From an uncultured Anaerolineaceae bacterium (GTDB lineage: Bacteria; Chloroflexota; Anaerolineae; Promineifilales; Promineifilaceae): DNA of 23,129 nt. The notes under the pieces are model-generated. The model saw only the letters and a program-made list of their open reading frames with translations, was not told the DNA's origin and ran no database searches. The stretch spans positions 1 to 23,129 of the forward strand of contig CALBTC010000380.1 of assembly GCA_937967805.1 (NCBI GenBank). The letters are read 5' to 3'. Position numbers and translations under genes: made by a program. Shown in pieces: positions 16,216 to 23,129 of this stretch (the stretch's first letter is position 1; each line of letters starts with the position of its first letter).

Positions 16216-16661
16216 TTAGGCAGGCAGGTCCGTATCGCCATCGTTAACCGTGTAGCGGCGCACCAATTTACCCGCCTCAACCACCAGCATCTCAACCCCT
16301 TTTTCCCGCACCGTGTTGGCCAGGATTGTCAGGTAGCCCTCGGTAGTGATGCCTTCTCCCTCGCTCGACTTGCCAATGACCAACGACTCCACCTCTTTTT
16401 CGCTGATCACGTCGGCCAGCGCCTCGCGGAAGCTGCCTTGCCGCACCATGATGTCTGCTTCCACACCGGCCTGATGCTTCCGGTCCTGGGCCATGCCCAG
16501 CAAAAACTCGCCCATTTCATCCAGTTCGTGAGCCACGTCTACCAGCAGCGGGCTGGAGTGTGAGATGGGTGACCGGCAGGCCGACCTTCATAAATTCAAT
16601 GGGAGACGGCAACCAGCAGCAGCAGCAGCGACCGCCGCCAATGGTGTCAGAATGTGATCAT
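16216..16661 (-). pseudogene. Decayed universal-stress-protein-like gene
   Basis: The original start survives: AAGGAG at 16675-16670, 8 nt before ATG 16661, but that frame stops after four codons (M-I-T-F). One frame over, H-I-L-T-P-L, the usual Usp beginning, reads on and meets a TGA. The same frame then runs open from about 16600 through DVAHELDEMGEFLLGM, EADIMVRQGSFREALADVI and ESLVIGKSSEGEG to the stop at 16216. The last 106 codons would be an intact Usp C-terminal half with the adenine-site pattern partly present. A (CAG)5 run at 16614-16628 sits in the decayed part. The Usp assignment is moderate. Confidence 0.6.
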
Positions 16662-16831
16662 AGGCTAAGCTCCTTGTTTTGCCCTGCCCCGATTAAAGGT
16701 TGATGATGTTTACGGCCGTCGACACCACGCTATTTTACCAGTGATCTTTGCCGAAATGTAGGCAAAGCGGTTACAACTTGAACTCAACTGTAATCATCTG
16801 CTTCACAGCATCCACCTGGGACTGAGAATTA

Positions 16832-17917
16832 ATGTTTTCCCAATTGACCAGCTGGGACAATTTATTGCGCGCCTACCGCCGCGCCAGCAAAGGCAAGCGA
16901 AGCAAACCGGACGTGGCTGCTTTTGAACACCGTTTGGAAGATAACCTTTGGCAGTTGGCCCAAGAATTGCAGCAGAACACGTACCAGCCTGGGCCGTACA
17001 AAAGCTTCCTTATCCACGATCCGAAGCGACGCTTAATCAGCGCTGCGCCGTTTAGAGACAGAGTTGTTCATCACGCGCTCTGCAATTTGATCGAGCCCAT
17101 TTTTGATCGTAGTTTTGTTGAAGACAGCTTCGCCAACCGCCGGGGCAAAGGGACACACGCTGCACGCGCACGCTGCCAGCAGTTTGCGCGTAGCTTTCAA
17201 TTTGCACTGCAATGTGACGTGCGCCAATTCTTCCCCAGCGTCGATCATGCCATTTTGCGAAACCAGCTGGCGCAGAAGATTGACGACGCGCGGGTATTGT
17301 GGCTTATTGACCTGATTTTAGACAGCGGCAAGGAGGTGCTGAAGGCGGAATATGAGATGGTCTACTTTGCCGGAGACGATCTCTTTGCCATTAACCGGCC
17401 ACGCGGCCTGCCCATTGGCAACCTGACCAGCCAGTTTTCGGCCAACGTCTATTTGAATTCGCTAGACCAGTTCGTGAAGCGACGGCTGCGCTGTAAAGGG
17501 TATGTGCGGTATGTGGACGATCTCTTGTTGTTCGCCGACGAGAAGGAGACACTTTGGGCATGGAAAGCCGCAATTGTGGCCCGCATGGCCGAGTTGCGCT
17601 TGACGCTCCATCCTGGCGCTCAGCCGCGGCCGGTGACCGAAGGAATTCCCTTTTTAGGGTTTCACATTTTTCCCAAGCGGATACGGCTGAAACGACGAAA
17701 GGGGATTCAATACCGGCGTAAATTTCATAGATTATTGGAAGAGTATGCAGCCGGAGAGATTGGCTTGGACCAGGTGACAGCCTCGGTGAAAGGGTGGGTG
17801 AACCACGCGCGCTGGGGAAACACCGTTGGCTTACGCAAGGCGATTTTGAGCACAACCAAGATTGGTCCAATTTCCAAAATTGGACCAATCTCGAAGATGA
17901 CCGCGCCACAGGGATAA
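16832..17917 (+). CDS. Diversity-generating retroelement reverse transcriptase
   Basis: A 361-residue RT that copies the template-repeat RNA with adenine-directed infidelity. RT motifs in order: KRRLISAAPFRDRVVHHAL (66-83), SFANRRGKGTHAAR, catalytic Asp129 in QCDVRQFFPSVD, and RGLPIGNLTSQFSANVYLN (191-209). The last has the G-x3-S-Q form characteristic of DGR RTs. YVRYVDDLLLFA follows with YVDD at 227-230, then GIPFLGFHIFP (271-281) and a thumb ending VKGWVNHARWGNT. There is no maturase X or HNH domain, which argues against a group II intron. It is on the plus strand, convergent with TR, Avd and target. The C-terminal tail has a repeated KIGPIS unit made by a palindromic insertion. ATG 16832 is the first start after an in-frame stop. 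Confidence 0.95.
   Translation: MFSQLTSWDNLLRAYRRASKGKRSKPDVAAFEHRLEDNLWQLAQELQQNTYQPGPYKSFLIHDPKRRLISAAPFRDRVVHHALCNLIEPIFDRSFVEDSFANRRGKGTHAARARCQQFARSFQFALQCDVRQFFPSVDHAILRNQLAQKIDDARVLWLIDLILDSGKEVLKAEYEMVYFAGDDLFAINRPRGLPIGNLTSQFSANVYLNSLDQFVKRRLRCKGYVRYVDDLLLFADEKETLWAWKAAIVARMAELRLTLHPGAQPRPVTEGIPFLGFHIFPKRIRLKRRKGIQYRRKFHRLLEEYAAGEIGLDQVTASVKGWVNHARWGNTVGLRKAILSTTKIGPISKIGPISKMTAPQG
17860..17890. repeat. Perfect 14-bp inverted repeat at the RT 3' end
   Basis: GATTGGTCCAATTT (17860-17873) and AAATTGGACCAATC (17877-17890) are exact inverted copies around a 3-nt loop. Each arm also contains its own 11-bp near-palindrome ATTGG-N-CCAAT. It lies inside the RT reading frame and creates the duplicated tail KIGPIS-KIGPIS. 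No T-tract follows on either strand, so it is not a classical intrinsic terminator. Confidence 0.85.
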
Positions 17918-18229
17918 ACCGAGGCGGCGCGACCGTTGTTATTTGCCCGGCTCTAAGCGCAGAGACGCCACGAGCGCGGCCAGGACAAAACCCCGCCATT
18001 TCTCGCCTCGGCGCGGCAGGCGTACCCGCCGCGCATTTCTGGCCGGGACACCGCCCAATGAGAAGTGTGGACACCACCACCCGCACGCCGTTGTTGTCGT
18101 TGAAGTTGTTGTCGGGATTGTTCCTGTTGCGCGCCGAACATGGGTGTCTGGGTCTTGCCCCACTGCCGATTGGCAGTTCTCGACCATCAAAACACCACAT
18201 GGCTTTGATGACTAAAAACTACCCACCGA
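17918..18229 (-). ncRNA. Predicted DGR template RNA region (TR plus flanks)
   Basis: The 312 bp between the Avd stop and the RT stop have no credible gene of their own; the long ORFs here are by-products. Read on the minus strand, the region holds a hairpin ACTGCC/GGCAGT with a 4-nt loop (18162-18177), then the TR (18145-18069), then a strong GC hairpin (18011-18034; 10-bp stem with one mismatch, 4-nt loop). In studied DGRs the RNA 3' of TR binds RT and Avd and primes cDNA synthesis. The exact RNA ends are unknown. Confidence 0.6.
18069..18145 (-). repeat. Template repeat (TR) of the DGR
   Basis: A 77-bp element nearly identical to the C-terminal codons of the target gene. Read in the target frame it encodes PCSARNRNNPDNNFNDNN and then GVRVVVS, an Asn-rich run of eight AAY codons plus two GAC. 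This is the composition that lets A-to-N changes sample many residues without making stops. The match ends at ACCCATGT on the 5' side. On the 3' side it ends after GTGGTGTCC, with a further 9 bp at two mismatches (to 18060). It is not preceded by a start or ribosome site. Confidence 0.95.
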
Positions 18230-18583
18230 TTATTGAACACCACCAACTGTCTTTAGCCAGCCACCAAGCAATCGGCCGATTTCCGCCAGCATGGCAGCGG
18301 CATGTTGGTATTGACCCGGCGTCAGCCAGCGCCAGCGTTCGGCCAGGCGCAGGTAGAGGCGCAGCCGGGCCAGGGCTTCGTCCGCCTCTTGCAGCCGGGC
18401 GCGGCGAGCTGCACCACGTTGCAGGTTCGCTTCTTCCAGGCGCTCGCGCAAATCGAAGGCGGCGTCGAGCAGGCGTTGAGTTGCCGTGTGGCGATGGGCG
18501 CGGGGAAAGTTGTTGGTGATGGGCAAAAGCCAGGTGAGCAGGTCGAAGGTTTTGCTAAAGATGGGCATCTCTTGTCGTGACAT
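18230..18583 (-). CDS. avd: Avd-like DGR accessory protein (four-helix bundle)
   Basis: A 117-residue all-helical basic protein matching the bAvd pattern. It has an N-terminal FDLLTWLLPITNNFPRAHR, then TATQRLLDAAFDLRERLEEAN, then ALARLRLYLRLAERWRWL and finally QYQHAAAMLAEIGRLLGGWL, the conserved closing helix. Avd forms a pentameric barrel that binds the RT and template RNA and is needed for mutagenic homing. It lies 102 bp downstream of the target gene and 85 bp upstream of TR on the same strand, the usual target-avd-TR order. ATG 18583 is taken as the start, although its ribosome site is poor. ATG 18568 is the alternative. The symbol is given by family resemblance. Confidence 0.9.
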   Translation of the reverse strand: MSRQEMPIFSKTFDLLTWLLPITNNFPRAHRHTATQRLLDAAFDLRERLEEANLQRGAARRARLQEADEALARLRLYLRLAERWRWLTPGQYQHAAAMLAEIGRLLGGWLKTVGGVQ

Positions 18584-18603
18584 GGTTCAGTGAATTATTA
18601 AAG

Positions 18604-18632
18604 CGTCGTGCGATTTGGAAAATCGCACAACG
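18604..18632. repeat. Hairpin between target gene and avd
   Basis: GTGCGATTT (18608-18616) and AAATCGCAC (18620-18628) pair perfectly around GGA. Three more pairs extend the stem beyond one mismatch to 18604/18632. It lies 3' of the VR in target orientation, 20 bp before the avd start. Confidence 0.7.
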
Positions 18633-18643
18633 AAAGAACAGAG

Positions 18644-18663
18644 GGCGGCTGCGCCGCCTTTTT
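18644..18663. repeat. GC-rich hairpin downstream of the VR
   Basis: GGCGGC (18644-18649) and GCCGCC (18653-18658) form a 6-bp stem with a 3-nt loop, followed on the plus strand by T5. In target orientation it starts about 50 nt past the VR. A GC hairpin or cruciform downstream of VR is a known target-recognition element in the Bordetella phage DGR. It could instead act as a terminator for plus-strand transcripts. Confidence 0.5.
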
Positions 18664-18664
18664 C

Positions 18665-18698
18665 AGAGATTCAGAGGCCAGAGATTCAGCGGCCAGAG
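18665..18698. repeat. Tandem 15-mer spanning the target stop codon
   Basis: Two copies of AGAGATTCAGMGGCC (18665-18679 and 18680-18694) plus a partial third lie directly 3' of the VR in target orientation. The target's TGA (18688-18686) is inside the second copy, so a frame slip past it would meet a second TGA 15 nt on. Confidence 0.8.
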
Positions 18699-21670
18699 GC
18701 GAGAAATGGGGACACCACCACCCGCACGCCGCTGACGCCGAGGAAGACGTCGGGAGCGCCCCTGCCGCGCGCCGAACATGGGTTCTGATCTGAATAGTAT
18801 GAGCCGCCACGCAAAACGATATCATTATTGTTTCGGGAATCGGCCGTTTCAAATTCCGGCGTTAGCTCAGGTGGAAACGGTTTGCCGTGCAGGCTGCGGG
18901 TCCATTCCCACACCTGGCCGCTCATATCCAGGCAGCCAACCGGGCTCTGGCCGGCGGGGAAGCTGCCCACGGCGCAGCGTTCACCAATGCCGGCGCTCCC
19001 GTTGTTGGTGCGATAAATGGCGTCTCCATCGGTTTCCTCTTCCTGCTCTGGCGCGTTGCCCCACGGATAAATACGCTGTGGCAATGGGTTTTCTTGCCAG
19101 GGTAGTTCGCCAACTGCCTGGGCGGCAAGCTGCTCTGGCGTCACAATCTGCGGCCGGGCCAGGATTTGCCGTCCGCCGCGGGCCGCCTTTTCCCACTCTA
19201 GTTCGCTGGGCAGCGTCACCCGGTAGCCATCTGGCAGCCAGCCCTTTTGCCGCCAGCGTGTCTCCAGCCATTCACAAAACGCCAGGGCATCGTACCAGTT
19301 CACCCAGGCCACCGGCCAGTTATCGGGTCCATCCAGACTACCCCGTGGAAAGCTGGGGTTAAAGTGACTCTCTTGTACAAACTCGCGGAATTGGGCTACC
19401 GTCACCGGGTGTTGGGCCAACCAGTACGGCCGGTCCAGGCCGTCGTACCAGTCGTCCCGTTTTCCTTTTTCCCAGCTCTCCAGCCAAAATGAGCCTGGCG
19501 GCACCAGGCAGAGCGGCATCTCGTCGCAGCGCAGGACGCCAGGGCGGTGGTCGCCCAGCGCGGCCAGCGCAGCGCCGGCCAGGGCCCGGTCACGCGGCGG
19601 CAACAGCCCGCGTTGCAAAATCGCCTGGTGCCACGCCTGCACCCGCGCCCGGGTGGCGCGCTCCATCTCGTTTTGCGCCGCTTCCGGTCCTGTTAGTTCC
19701 GCTTCGGCCAACACCTGTCCGGCCAGGAACGCGCCCCACAGGTCCGGGTCGTTGGCGTCACTGCCGGCAGCAGGCGGCTGCTGGCACAGGCTGGTCACCA
19801 ACGACCAGACAGTGTAGGGCACTTTGCGCTGGCTGGCGGCGGCCAGCAGCAGCGCCTCGCGCCAGCGGCCGGGGTCCTCTTTGGCCAGCCGGGCCAGGTC
19901 GTAAGGAAAGTTTTGCTTGAGCAAATGCAGCCCGGCCAGGTATTCCTGGAAGGTGCGGTGCGGGAAGCGGTATACGTCGTCGCTGTCGTCGTCGTTACGG
20001 CCGTGGTCCTCCAGCAGGCCGGCCCGGTCACGCACGTATTCGATGATGTCGTCGGTGCTGACGGCCGTCTCTTTTCCCCTGTATTTATGCAGCTTGCCCG
20101 CCAGCAGTTCGCCGGGAATATCGGCCGTTTGCTCCTGCTCAGCCTGGTCACGATGGGCTACAAACGCCACCTCAGCCAGCGCCTCCATCAGCCGCTCCGT
20201 ATCCACACCCAGCACCTCAGACAGCGTTTTTGTTTCCTGGCCGGGAATCGACTTAGAGCGCCGCCAATGGTCCAGCAGCAAAATCACGCTAAGACGGTAC
20301 AGCTCTTCCCGCCGCTGCGGCAGCGCACCCCCTTCCCGCCCGCGATGAATGAGGACCATCATCGTCAGCAGCAAGGGATGGCGGGCCAGCTCGCGCAGAT
20401 TGCGGTTTTGCTGCACCTGCTGGATCAATCCCTTGCCGTACTGCTCCGCCTTTTCCGGGCCCAGCGTGCCGTCCTTTTGCCCCATCACCGCGTACCACTG
20501 GGTGACAAACGCTTCGATTTGCTCATCGCTAAAAGGCAGCAGCCACGTTACCTGGAACGCTTTAAGCTCCCAGCCACTGCCATAAGCATAAGGGCGGCTG
20601 GTGACAACAATGCGTACCTTTTCAAAGTCGCGGGCAAAAAGCTCAATATTATCTTTTAGCGACTTGCGTAATTCACTGGCCTTATCGACCTCGTCTAACC
20701 CGTCCAGCAGGAGGATGCCGCCTTCATTTTCCAGCCGCCGCTTCAGATGGGGCACGTAGCCCGCTAACTTTATCGTAGGACGGCTGAGGTCAGCGGCGAT
20801 GAACTGCCACACGTCCTGCCCCTTAGACAGGCCGCGGGCCGCATATTCACGTAGAATCACGCGCACCGGCCAGAGCCGCTTGTGGCCCAACTCCCAGCCG
20901 TGTTCGCGCAAATCGTCCTGCGTGACGTCAACCTCGTCGTCATAATCCCCGGCCAGCCGGTCGCCGGCCAGGCAAAGCGTGAGGTAGTTCACCAGGGTAG
21001 ATTTGCCGGAGCCCGGCGCGCCAAGCAGCACCAACCGATCGTTTGCCGCCCGGCCAATGGCGGACAGGGCCGGTTCGCGCTGGAGCCGCTCCGTTTGCTC
21101 TAGCTGAGCCAGGTCGGCCGTCGCCATATCGCGCAGATGCTCGGCGTGCGGCACATCGAGCGAGGTGAAGATGTGGTCCAGGGCCAGCTTTTCGGCATGA
21201 AAGCCCGCCTCTTTGATGTCCACCAGGGCCATCGACGGTGGATACAGGCAAAGATGCATCAGGTGTAGCAGGTAGCGTCGCTCCCACTCGGCTACACTCA
21301 CCGCTTCCTGCTCACGACCGGGCGTATCTGCTGGCTTGTTGTCGTCCCCCGTTTTATCTGCCGGAGGCTCAACCGAGGGAGGAGAGTCTGGTGTTTCAGT
21401 TGGACCAGTGCCTTTCTCCCGTCTTTCCAGCAGGTCGAAATAGCGATTGCCAAACGTGAAAACCAGATAGGCAATGACAGCGACCAGAAAGATGGCAATC
21501 AGCAGGGTCCAATCCGGCAGGCCACCGGTGATCCAGCCAAAGAAAAGCAGGAGCGCGGTAAACAGGCCGGCGAAAGCAAGTACGGCCTGGAGCCTGCCAA
21601 AGCCCTCGATGAAAGCCTTGATCGTATCTAAATAACCACCAGATTGGGGATCGGGATCAGGCTGGGTCAT
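18686..21670 (-). CDS. DGR target: membrane-anchored NACHT NTPase with FGE/C-type-lectin-like variable domain
   Basis: A 994-residue STAND-type protein. Two hydrophobic helices (about 28-48 and 53-74) near the N-terminus predict membrane anchoring, followed by a Pro/Asp-rich linker (86-120). The NACHT core has Walker A G-A-P-G-S-G-K-S-T at 217-225, Walker B ILLLDGLDEVD at 319-329 and sensor RIVVTSRPYAY. Helical segments FPHRTFQEYLAGLHLL and a short HEAT-like region follow. The FGE-sulfatase domain is 718-994: PPGSFWL, PVTVAQFREF, PVAWVNWYDALAFCEWL, LPSELEWEKAARGG, GQVWEW, LRGGSYYS. The last 24 or so residues (964-987) are encoded by the VR. Translation from TTG 21718 is possible, but ATG 21670 has GGAG 7 nt upstream. 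A signalling or defence sensor with a hypervariable binding tip is inferred. Confidence 0.93.
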   Translation of the reverse strand: MTQPDPDPQSGGYLDTIKAFIEGFGRLQAVLAFAGLFTALLLFFGWITGGLPDWTLLIAIFLVAVIAYLVFTFGNRYFDLLERREKGTGPTETPDSPPSVEPPADKTGDDNKPADTPGREQEAVSVAEWERRYLLHLMHLCLYPPSMALVDIKEAGFHAEKLALDHIFTSLDVPHAEHLRDMATADLAQLEQTERLQREPALSAIGRAANDRLVLLGAPGSGKSTLVNYLTLCLAGDRLAGDYDDEVDVTQDDLREHGWELGHKRLWPVRVILREYAARGLSKGQDVWQFIAADLSRPTIKLAGYVPHLKRRLENEGGILLLDGLDEVDKASELRKSLKDNIELFARDFEKVRIVVTSRPYAYGSGWELKAFQVTWLLPFSDEQIEAFVTQWYAVMGQKDGTLGPEKAEQYGKGLIQQVQQNRNLRELARHPLLLTMMVLIHRGREGGALPQRREELYRLSVILLLDHWRRSKSIPGQETKTLSEVLGVDTERLMEALAEVAFVAHRDQAEQEQTADIPGELLAGKLHKYRGKETAVSTDDIIEYVRDRAGLLEDHGRNDDDSDDVYRFPHRTFQEYLAGLHLLKQNFPYDLARLAKEDPGRWREALLLAAASQRKVPYTVWSLVTSLCQQPPAAGSDANDPDLWGAFLAGQVLAEAELTGPEAAQNEMERATRARVQAWHQAILQRGLLPPRDRALAGAALAALGDHRPGVLRCDEMPLCLVPPGSFWLESWEKGKRDDWYDGLDRPYWLAQHPVTVAQFREFVQESHFNPSFPRGSLDGPDNWPVAWVNWYDALAFCEWLETRWRQKGWLPDGYRVTLPSELEWEKAARGGRQILARPQIVTPEQLAAQAVGELPWQENPLPQRIYPWGNAPEQEEETDGDAIYRTNNGSAGIGERCAVGSFPAGQSPVGCLDMSGQVWEWTRSLHGKPFPPELTPEFETADSRNNNDIVLRGGSYYSDQNPCSARGRGAPDVFLGVSGVRVVVSPFLASGR
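18710..18783 (-). repeat. Variable repeat (VR) of the DGR
   Basis: A 74-bp segment ending 22 bp before the target stop codon's last base, aligning to TR 18069-18145. On the coding strand, codons change AAC-GGC, AAC-GGC, AAT-GCT, AAC-GTC, AAC-deleted, AAC-CTC, GAC-GGC, AAC-GTC and AAC-AGC. Fourteen substitutions are counted, all at TR adenines, with no other change in the core. The shared 21-bp tail ending GTGGTGTCC is the presumed initiation-of-mutagenic-homing site. The protein reads CSARGRGAPDV-FLGVSG where TR gives CSARNRNNPDNNFNDNNG. Confidence 0.95.
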
Positions 21671-21813
21671 AGGTTTTCTCCAAAATTGAGTTTTGTGGCA
21701 AGTACTGTTTGTTGGCAAAAGATAGCACAGGAGAATGAAGATTGCCAGCCGCGAACGAGTGGGTCAGTAAAATCCGAGGATGCTTGGTATCAGTGATTGT
21801 TGTTTAGCTGGGT

Positions 21814-21868
21814 CATGATAGAAGCAACGGCCGTAACCGCCAGCAAATGTTTGTTTAGCTCGATTAAC
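21814..21868 (-). pseudogene. Orphan C-terminal end of a CooC/MinD-like gene
   Basis: On the minus strand, just after the APH-fold kinase stop, the frame LIELNKHLLAVTAVASIMTQL then NNNH and stop (ending near 21794) matches the end of the ATPase at 22870-23129, FIELNNESLAVTAVAEIMGQL. The 55-bp segments 21814-21868 and 22897-22951 align without gaps at about 80% identity, in the same orientation, on either side of the kinase gene. This looks like the leftover tail of a second copy after duplication and replacement. It has no start of its own. Confidence 0.7.
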
Positions 21869-22870: not shown

Positions 22871-23129
22871 TAATGCTTACGCGAACCAAGTTGACCCATG
22901 ATTTCGGCAACGGCCGTAACCGCCAAAGACTCATTGTTTAGCTCGATGAACGGCCGTCCGGCCAGCTCCAAAGCCGCCAGCTCTTCGTCCGGCGGCACGA
23001 CCCCCAGCAGCGGAATTCCCATCTTGTTGATGTGGTCTTGCAGCACGTCGGGCACAGGGCCGCTCAGCCGGTTCAGGATCAGGCCGGTGTGCTCAATCTC
23101 AATGTCCAGCTCGTGGCGGAAGGCGGCAA
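22870..23129 (-). CDS. CooC/MinD-like P-loop ATPase, C-terminal part (5' end outside window)
   Basis: The frame read from 23127 downwards is AAFRHELDIEIEHTGLILNR, LSGPVPDVLQDHINKMGIPL, LGVVPPDEELAALELAGRPF and IELNNESLAVTAVAEIMGQL to the stop. The pattern L-I-L-N-R with GIPLLGVVPPDEELA and GRPxIEL is that of CooC-type deviant-Walker ATPases of the SIMIBI class, which insert nickel or act with metallo-enzymes, and of related MinD/ParA proteins. The P-loop is beyond the window edge, so the exact subfamily is open. It is translationally coupled to the APH-fold kinase downstream. Confidence 0.75.
   Translation of the reverse strand, partial: AAFRHELDIEIEHTGLILNRLSGPVPDVLQDHINKMGIPLLGVVPPDEELAALELAGRPFIELNNESLAVTAVAEIMGQLGSRKH

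Follow-up and report, generated by a model that had tools for sequence, protein, structure and literature searches.

The diversity-generating retroelement (DGR) of Bordetella phage BPP-1 (AY029185) combines a reverse transcriptase (RT), Avd, a template repeat (TR) and a variable repeat (VR) at the 3′ end of the gene for a lectin-fold target, which is a phage tail protein, and is annotated in the order target-Avd-TR. In the parts of the literature considered here, a hairpin is placed 3′ of the BPP-1 VR (PMC3240598), and the RNA after the TR is known or predicted to be structured and to work with RT-Avd (PMC12875486, PMC8867640). The available text of Dore et al. 2024 (PMC10907252) describes DGRs of multicellular bacteria, filamentous Chloroflexi among them, whose targets are STAND/NACHT and FGE proteins: NACHT or another STAND NTPase is fused to a DGR-varied lectin-fold domain, in some cases with transmembrane segments. 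RT-inverted cassettes appear in a catalogue as the G5 pattern, given in the portion consulted as more than 20 times rarer than the prototype (PMC6642488), and targets remote from the RT are, in the passages available, held to be diversified in trans (PMC10907252, PMC7517822).

The window, that is, the whole 23,129-nt stretch of DNA analysed here, contains a complete DGR with RT, Avd, TR, VR and a NACHT-FGE target, and its host is probably a member of the Chloroflexota. The initial annotation had placed all these parts within 5 kb, and each was confirmed there; that list was silent on two features, the opposite strand of the RT and an RNA-like element between the TR and the RT. The features are as follows.

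16832..17917, plus strand: DGR reverse transcriptase, 361 aa (RVT_1, PHROG 1423, PDB 8ub7)
17899..18044, minus strand: three-hairpin conserved element (putative spacer RNA) 3′ of the TR (123.8 bits with covariance model R1; covariation)
18069..18144, minus strand: TR, 76-nt core (TR-VR alignment)
18230..18583, minus strand: Avd, 117 aa (NCBIfam DivGenRetAVD, Pfam bAvd, PDB Bbp7/Avd)
18608..18628, minus strand: inverted repeat with a 9-bp stem, a possible target hairpin, 72 nt past the detected VR segment
18710..18782, minus strand: VR, 73-nt core lacking one AAC codon of the TR (TR-VR alignment)
18686..21670, minus strand: target gene with two hydrophobic segments, NACHT and a C-terminal FGE (lectin-like) domain, with the VR at its end
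16676..21786, no strand assigned: stretch missing from the same neighbourhood in the relative L218 (alignment to L218)

In transcription order, the minus strand carries the target with the VR at its 3′ end, Avd, the TR and the conserved element, and the plus-strand RT (16832-17917) sits tail to tail with the element, so that within the window the RT is encoded on one strand and the TR, Avd, target and element on the other. The locus resembles the BPP-1 DGR in its parts, in having the VR at the 3′ end of the gene for a lectin-fold protein, in the order target-Avd-TR, in the hairpin 3′ of the VR and in the structured stretch that the available text describes 3′ of the BPP-1 TR (PMC12875486), but differs from it in the strand of the RT and in the target, which is a NACHT-FGE protein rather than a phage tail protein.

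The IGNLTSQ and YVDD motifs are marks of DGR RTs, and both are present, as had been noticed, in the translation of 16832-17917 (+). The protein matches RVT_1 (E 5.3e-17) and the PHROG 1423 reverse transcriptase (396 bits), and among solved structures the nearest in sequence is the RT of the BPP-1 complex with Avd (8ub7; E 1.4e-61, 211.9 bits), followed in the PDB by a group II intron RT (104.3 bits). PADLOC lists it under its RT models and reports nothing for Avd or the target. The Avd-like protein scores 99.6 bits against the NCBIfam DivGenRetAVD equivalog (cut-off 80), and matches Pfam bAvd (E 1.4e-21) and the PDB entry Bbp7/Avd. A 31-nt inverted repeat with 14-bp arms (17860-17890) lies within the RT 3′ end and codes a doubled KIGPIS; a different palindrome occupies the same RT-element junction in the related locus L001, and a similar one is found near the element of L061.

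The VR differs from the TR at 14 of 18 aligned TR adenines and at none of the 55 other aligned sites (hypergeometric P 8e-12). The claim that TR-VR differences fall on TR adenines only therefore holds for every substitution, but not for a 3-nt deletion in the VR, which removes one AAC codon of the TR in frame. The eight AAY and two GAC codons described earlier are indeed found in the TR, which would code PCSAR-NRNNPDNNFNDNN-GVRVVVS; the VR codes GRGAPDV-FLGVS where the TR would code NRNNPDNNFNDNN. The matching VR was correctly placed at the 3′ end of the target gene, where it covers residues 979-1003 of the 1010-aa open reading frame (ORF), and the 3′ constant stretch (IMH/IMH*), GGCGTGCGGGTGGTGGTGTCC, is the same in TR and VR. 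The 9-bp stem at 18608-18628 lies 3′ of this VR; across loci, stems of at least 6 bp occur within 130 nt 3′ of 61 of 88 VRs, compared with 13 of 88 on the upstream side and 8.7 in shuffled sequences.

The window holds other imperfect two-copy repeats, and the TR and VR might in principle be one more such pair, diverged in the ordinary way with no mutagenesis by a retroelement. The probability of this is negligible, given that all 14 substitutions fall on adenines of one copy (P 8e-12) and that the adenine bias was found again across 88 TR-VR pairs from 83 loci, a set in which the non-adenine counts are inflated where alignments extended past the repeats; we rejected ordinary repeat divergence because the adenine-only counts contradict it. 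The DGR interpretation is supported since every DGR hallmark testable here was found, including the hairpin 3′ of the VR: the BPP-1 RT is the closest structure, Avd matches its equivalog model, the TR-VR substitutions are adenine-only, and the VR lies at the FGE end.

Loss of codons recurs, given that the VR of the relative L112 carries a 6-nt deletion. A hand count puts indels within the adenine-rich core in about 13 of the 88 pairs, in nine of which they are multiples of three; this by-eye count replaces an automatic tally of 42 of 88 pairs, in which many rows ran past the repeat ends. In-frame gains or losses of VR codons in the adenine-rich core were seen by eye in the window, L112, L024, L038, L056, L072, L157, L172 and L185. 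Such gain and loss of codons is a possible second mode of variation.

The target ORF (21718..18686, minus strand) comprises 1010 aa, and its start is probably the ATG at 21670, the end coordinate of the initial annotation. It carries a NACHT domain (E 4e-9) and an FGE-sulfatase domain (E 6.5e-32), and hydropathy points to two hydrophobic segments, one around residues 45-63 and one around residues 72-90 in the numbering of the full ORF. An AlphaFold model built from a 30-row alignment (A5) has a mean pLDDT of 79.7, lower around the VR, and a pTM of 0.70; its NTPase part matches NOD2 and NLRC4, and its C-terminal domain matches ToxD and formylglycine-generating enzymes, with low whole-chain TM-scores (0.15-0.31 among the 50 matches listed). 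The target has a NACHT domain and a lectin-like sensor part, and neither the domain search nor PADLOC identified an effector domain in it; no neighbouring effector gene was recognised at the window locus. The protein is probably an NLR-like sensor with a varied lectin-fold tip. Kaur et al. are said to have linked such targets to ternary conflict systems in 2020.

The window pcaB shares 86% identity with its counterpart in G030, a genome in the family of L001, in which the same neighbourhood (L218) occurs without the DGR. Position 16675 of the window aligns to 12744 of L218, and position 21788 to 12777. Beside the DGR, at 16549-16675, lie two scraps of a transporter-like gene (named by eye) that is whole in L218 (11021-12730), and no target-site duplication was seen at the window/L218 junctions. 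Judged from this alignment, the cassette would have been either gained in the window or lost in L218, next to a decayed gene. A clean empty site was sought and not found: relatives have the transporter gene where the window has its scraps and the DGR. Elsewhere in the window, a 55-nt repeat (21814-21868 and 22897-22951, 80% identical) echoes the end of a CbiA/MinD-like gene downstream of an APH-type kinase gene, and at the contig edge (1-40) a hybrid histidine kinase reads KKKKKKK in its response-regulator domain, which resembles an assembly or edge artefact.

A search of genome contigs with 23 RTs (alignment A1) returned at least 579 relatives, of which the best 80 (L001-L080) together with the window make up 81 sources. 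An adenine-biased near-repeat was found in 61 of them by a detector (A ≥ 5, score ≥ 35) whose output includes simple-repeat-like hits (L052 and the first hit of L051). A placement of the RT in a DGR-RT tree had been proposed as a check; the 61 sources with such a near-repeat pair speak for it, and the tree itself comprises relatives only, with no outgroup.

Loci of differing gene order share a conserved stretch 3′ of the TR. RNAalifold, applied to a MAFFT alignment of 23 such stretches with ends chosen by eye (A2), gave 27 pairs, 23 of them with compensatory changes; with three outer-stem pairs added, 26 of 30 pairs are changed on both sides. In this alignment 93.5% of the cells are paired, against 72.1% when shuffled and 45-48% with the partners slid by one column. 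The resulting covariance model R1 (149 positions, the window being one seed) matches 70 of the 81 sources at E < 0.05, including 47 of the 58 non-seeds; the weakest are L041 and L067 (E 0.01 and 0.04), and three further secondary matches (E < 0.05) fall in loci already counted. When 36 non-seed matches, including L112, a close relative of the seed L001, were aligned with MAFFT and folded de novo, the same three helices were recovered, with 24 of 28 pairs compensated. Unpaired letters are conserved between the helices, among them a GGGCAAATA-like stretch. R1 did not find the element in 11 of the 81 sources (L015, L026, L037, L039, L044, L050, L059, L063, L064, L076 and L077), and the sequence of L015 stops just after the TR. 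We used covariation as the evidence for an RNA because single-sequence stability was unsupportive, with single sequences folding little better than shuffles (z -0.58, -1.19 and -1.16).

Of the 56 loci in which TR and element were both found, 55 have the element on the TR strand directly 3′ of the TR, with a median gap of 19 nt; the sole exception is L052, where the TR call is doubtful. An Rfam identity was rejected: at the gathering score the window gave no match, and neither did the element in 20 further loci, where the one match, a group II intron in L007, lies outside the element. Below threshold, the best window matches are unrelated miRNA families, and RT-15 RNA reaches 12.1 and 10.1 bits (cut-off 82). 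Homology to the BPP-1 spacer was likewise rejected: it occupies the same position but has no detectable similarity to R1 (best -0.3 bits, filters off), so the role of the element rests on position and analogy. In the window, the element and the RT stop region share 19 nt at the 3′ end of the element; such an antisense overlap was discarded as a conserved feature, being confined, among the four loci compared, to the window, whereas the RT stops short of the element by 31, 27 and 18 nt in L001, L112 and L114, respectively.

The element is likely folded as RNA and, by analogy with BPP-1, probably serves to recruit the enzyme. The hairpins could instead be a transcription terminator or processing signal common to DGR loci and not a site of RT-Avd binding or priming; the last hairpin would suit that role, being rich in G+C, placed where the TR unit ends and, in the window, located between convergent genes. 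We consider this unlikely: three helices with conserved unpaired letters exceed the needs of a terminator, visual inspection of the window shows no T-run following the last hairpin, and the BPP-1 stretch at the same place is described, in the text available, as folding and recruiting bRT-Avd (PMC12875486).

The element is opposite to the RT in four of the 70 sources, namely the window, L001, L022 and L049. In the 81-row RT tree, from which nine rows with a stop in the aligned stretch were left out and two identical rows dropped, the window, L001 and L112, all RT-inverted, group together with support of 100/98, and the inverted state requires at least three changes (the window lineage, L022 and L049). 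Five close relatives share the inverted RT: L001, L112, L113, L114 and L115, the last with a broken RT. L113 and L114 have open RT frames with 77% and 74% RT identity and were left out of the tree; these two and L115 were assigned to the window lineage by identity. In a second RT lineage (L036, L046, L047, L049, L056, L058, L061, L065, L068-L071, L073 and L078), Avd runs antisense to the RT, and in several of these loci it is surrounded by VRs on both strands.

Inversion could also be the mark of a dying DGR, in which a rearrangement flipped the RT out of a shared transcript and the target is no longer mutated. The rarity of RT-inverted cassettes (4 of 70 RT-first sources with the element), the broken RT of L115, a locus of the same kind, and two non-adenine changes in the VR of L112 would fit such decay, which we nevertheless regard as improbable. 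The RT frame is intact in the window and in four RT-inverted relatives, and the window VR has no non-adenine substitution relative to its TR. Moreover, TR and VR co-vary between loci: in the 15 pairwise comparisons of six RT-inverted loci, the TRs differ at 95 non-adenine sites, 93 of these differences recur in the VR of the same locus, and both unmirrored ones involve L112. VRs also differ between two close genomes, with L001 and L112, 93.1% identical over 4,999 nt, differing in the VR at 11 of 17 adenine sites and 4 of 53 others.

Used as bait, R1 had matches in 17 of 52 genomes of the family of L001 and, under strict filters, in 71 of 396 genomes of its class. We examined 69 matches (60 from the class survey and 9 from the family survey) with flanks of up to 7-10 kb where the contig allowed; this RNA-first set overlaps the RT-first set, and some contigs are shared (for example, L158 and L009). 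A TR lies directly 5′ of the element in 48 of the 69. The nearest RT, sought by tblastn with nine RTs (E 1e-8), is on the same strand in 39 and on the opposite strand in five (L112-L115 and L207, the latter with the RT 2 kb away), and 25 have none in the examined stretch. A TR-VR pair was found in 15 of these 25 RT-less stretches, and 12 of the 15 are flanked by 3.5 kb or more of sequence on either side: L157, L169, L177, L183, L184, L185, L197, L200, L205, L210, L108 and L109.

Avd, searched with one query, is still present in L157 and L177; L108 (G007:C31), L109 (G031:C12), L169, L183, L184, L185, L197, L200, L205 and L210 have neither RT nor Avd within at least 3.5 kb on each side. L157, on a 4.67-Mb contig (G270:C1), has VR, Avd, TR and element, with 24 adenine substitutions and zero others, and no RT of this kind was found in its whole genome (E 1e-20). 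Among the 12 whole genomes checked, six have a sizeable RT match elsewhere (G022, G178, G211, G261, G329 and G335), two have short matches only (G007 and G066) and four have none at E 1e-20 (G031, G270, G319 and G344), draft genomes being ones in which an RT may be missed. With an RT elsewhere in some genomes and none in others, the RT-less cassettes would be either served in trans or recently orphaned. From their sequence, the target-TR-RNA cassettes that have neither RT nor Avd are candidate satellite DGRs.

Taken together, our main reading, to which we assign a probability of roughly 85%, is that RT-Avd copies the template RNA with random adenine changes and overwrites the end of the NACHT-FGE gene, with the covarying element recruiting the enzyme. 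If the locus works like the BPP-1 DGR, its minus-strand transcript would carry the TR and the element; the element would bind RT-Avd and supply the priming site; RT and Avd would copy the template RNA, placing random bases at adenines; and the cDNA with changed adenines would replace the VR at the last codons of the target. Since the element keeps to the TR strand directly 3′ of the TR regardless of RT orientation, in all but one of the loci with both, the RT of the window would likely come from its own plus-strand transcript and act on the RNA as a separately made protein. More tentatively, at somewhat less than even odds, the TR and its structured RNA may form the unit of a DGR, a handle seen in trans that leaves the RT free to flip or to leave. 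The flip would then have been freed in the window lineage and at least two others, and satellite DGRs would be RT-less target-TR-RNA cassettes diversified by an RT elsewhere in the genome.

NACHT/FGE-target DGRs with Chloroflexi hosts (PMC10907252) and RT-inverted cassettes (PMC6642488) are already in print, in the portions of those accounts available. The window resembles the former in its NACHT fusion and hydrophobic segments, and adds an inverted RT and a conserved RNA element, absent from that account as far as its available text goes. It shares with the G5 pattern an RT inverted relative to TR and VR, but where G5, as excerpted, is a catalogue entry (PMC6642488), the window belongs to one conserved lineage that keeps the RNA element on the TR strand. 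The RT-less cassettes resemble the remote or trans-served targets in lying away from an RT, but differ from them, as described in the text available (PMC10907252, PMC7517822), in carrying their own TR and RNA element. The RNA family and the RT-less cassettes are the less familiar part. Among titles and abstract openings of the open-access literature, we found no covariance model of the TR-adjacent stretch for this RT lineage, no report of the constancy of the element across RT inversions and no use of it to find RT-less cassettes; part of the TR-adjacent RNA may already have been described in earlier comparative RNA work.

A known handle would make it possible to test how a DGR RT picks its own template among the RNAs of the cell, and whether it serves distant templates. 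The covariance model finds DGR templates independently of the RT and reveals RT-less cassettes that RT-based surveys would miss, and the handle might be put to use in targeted mutagenesis as a portable element. The locus itself would add to the NLR-like receptors of bacteria that carry a hypervariable tip.
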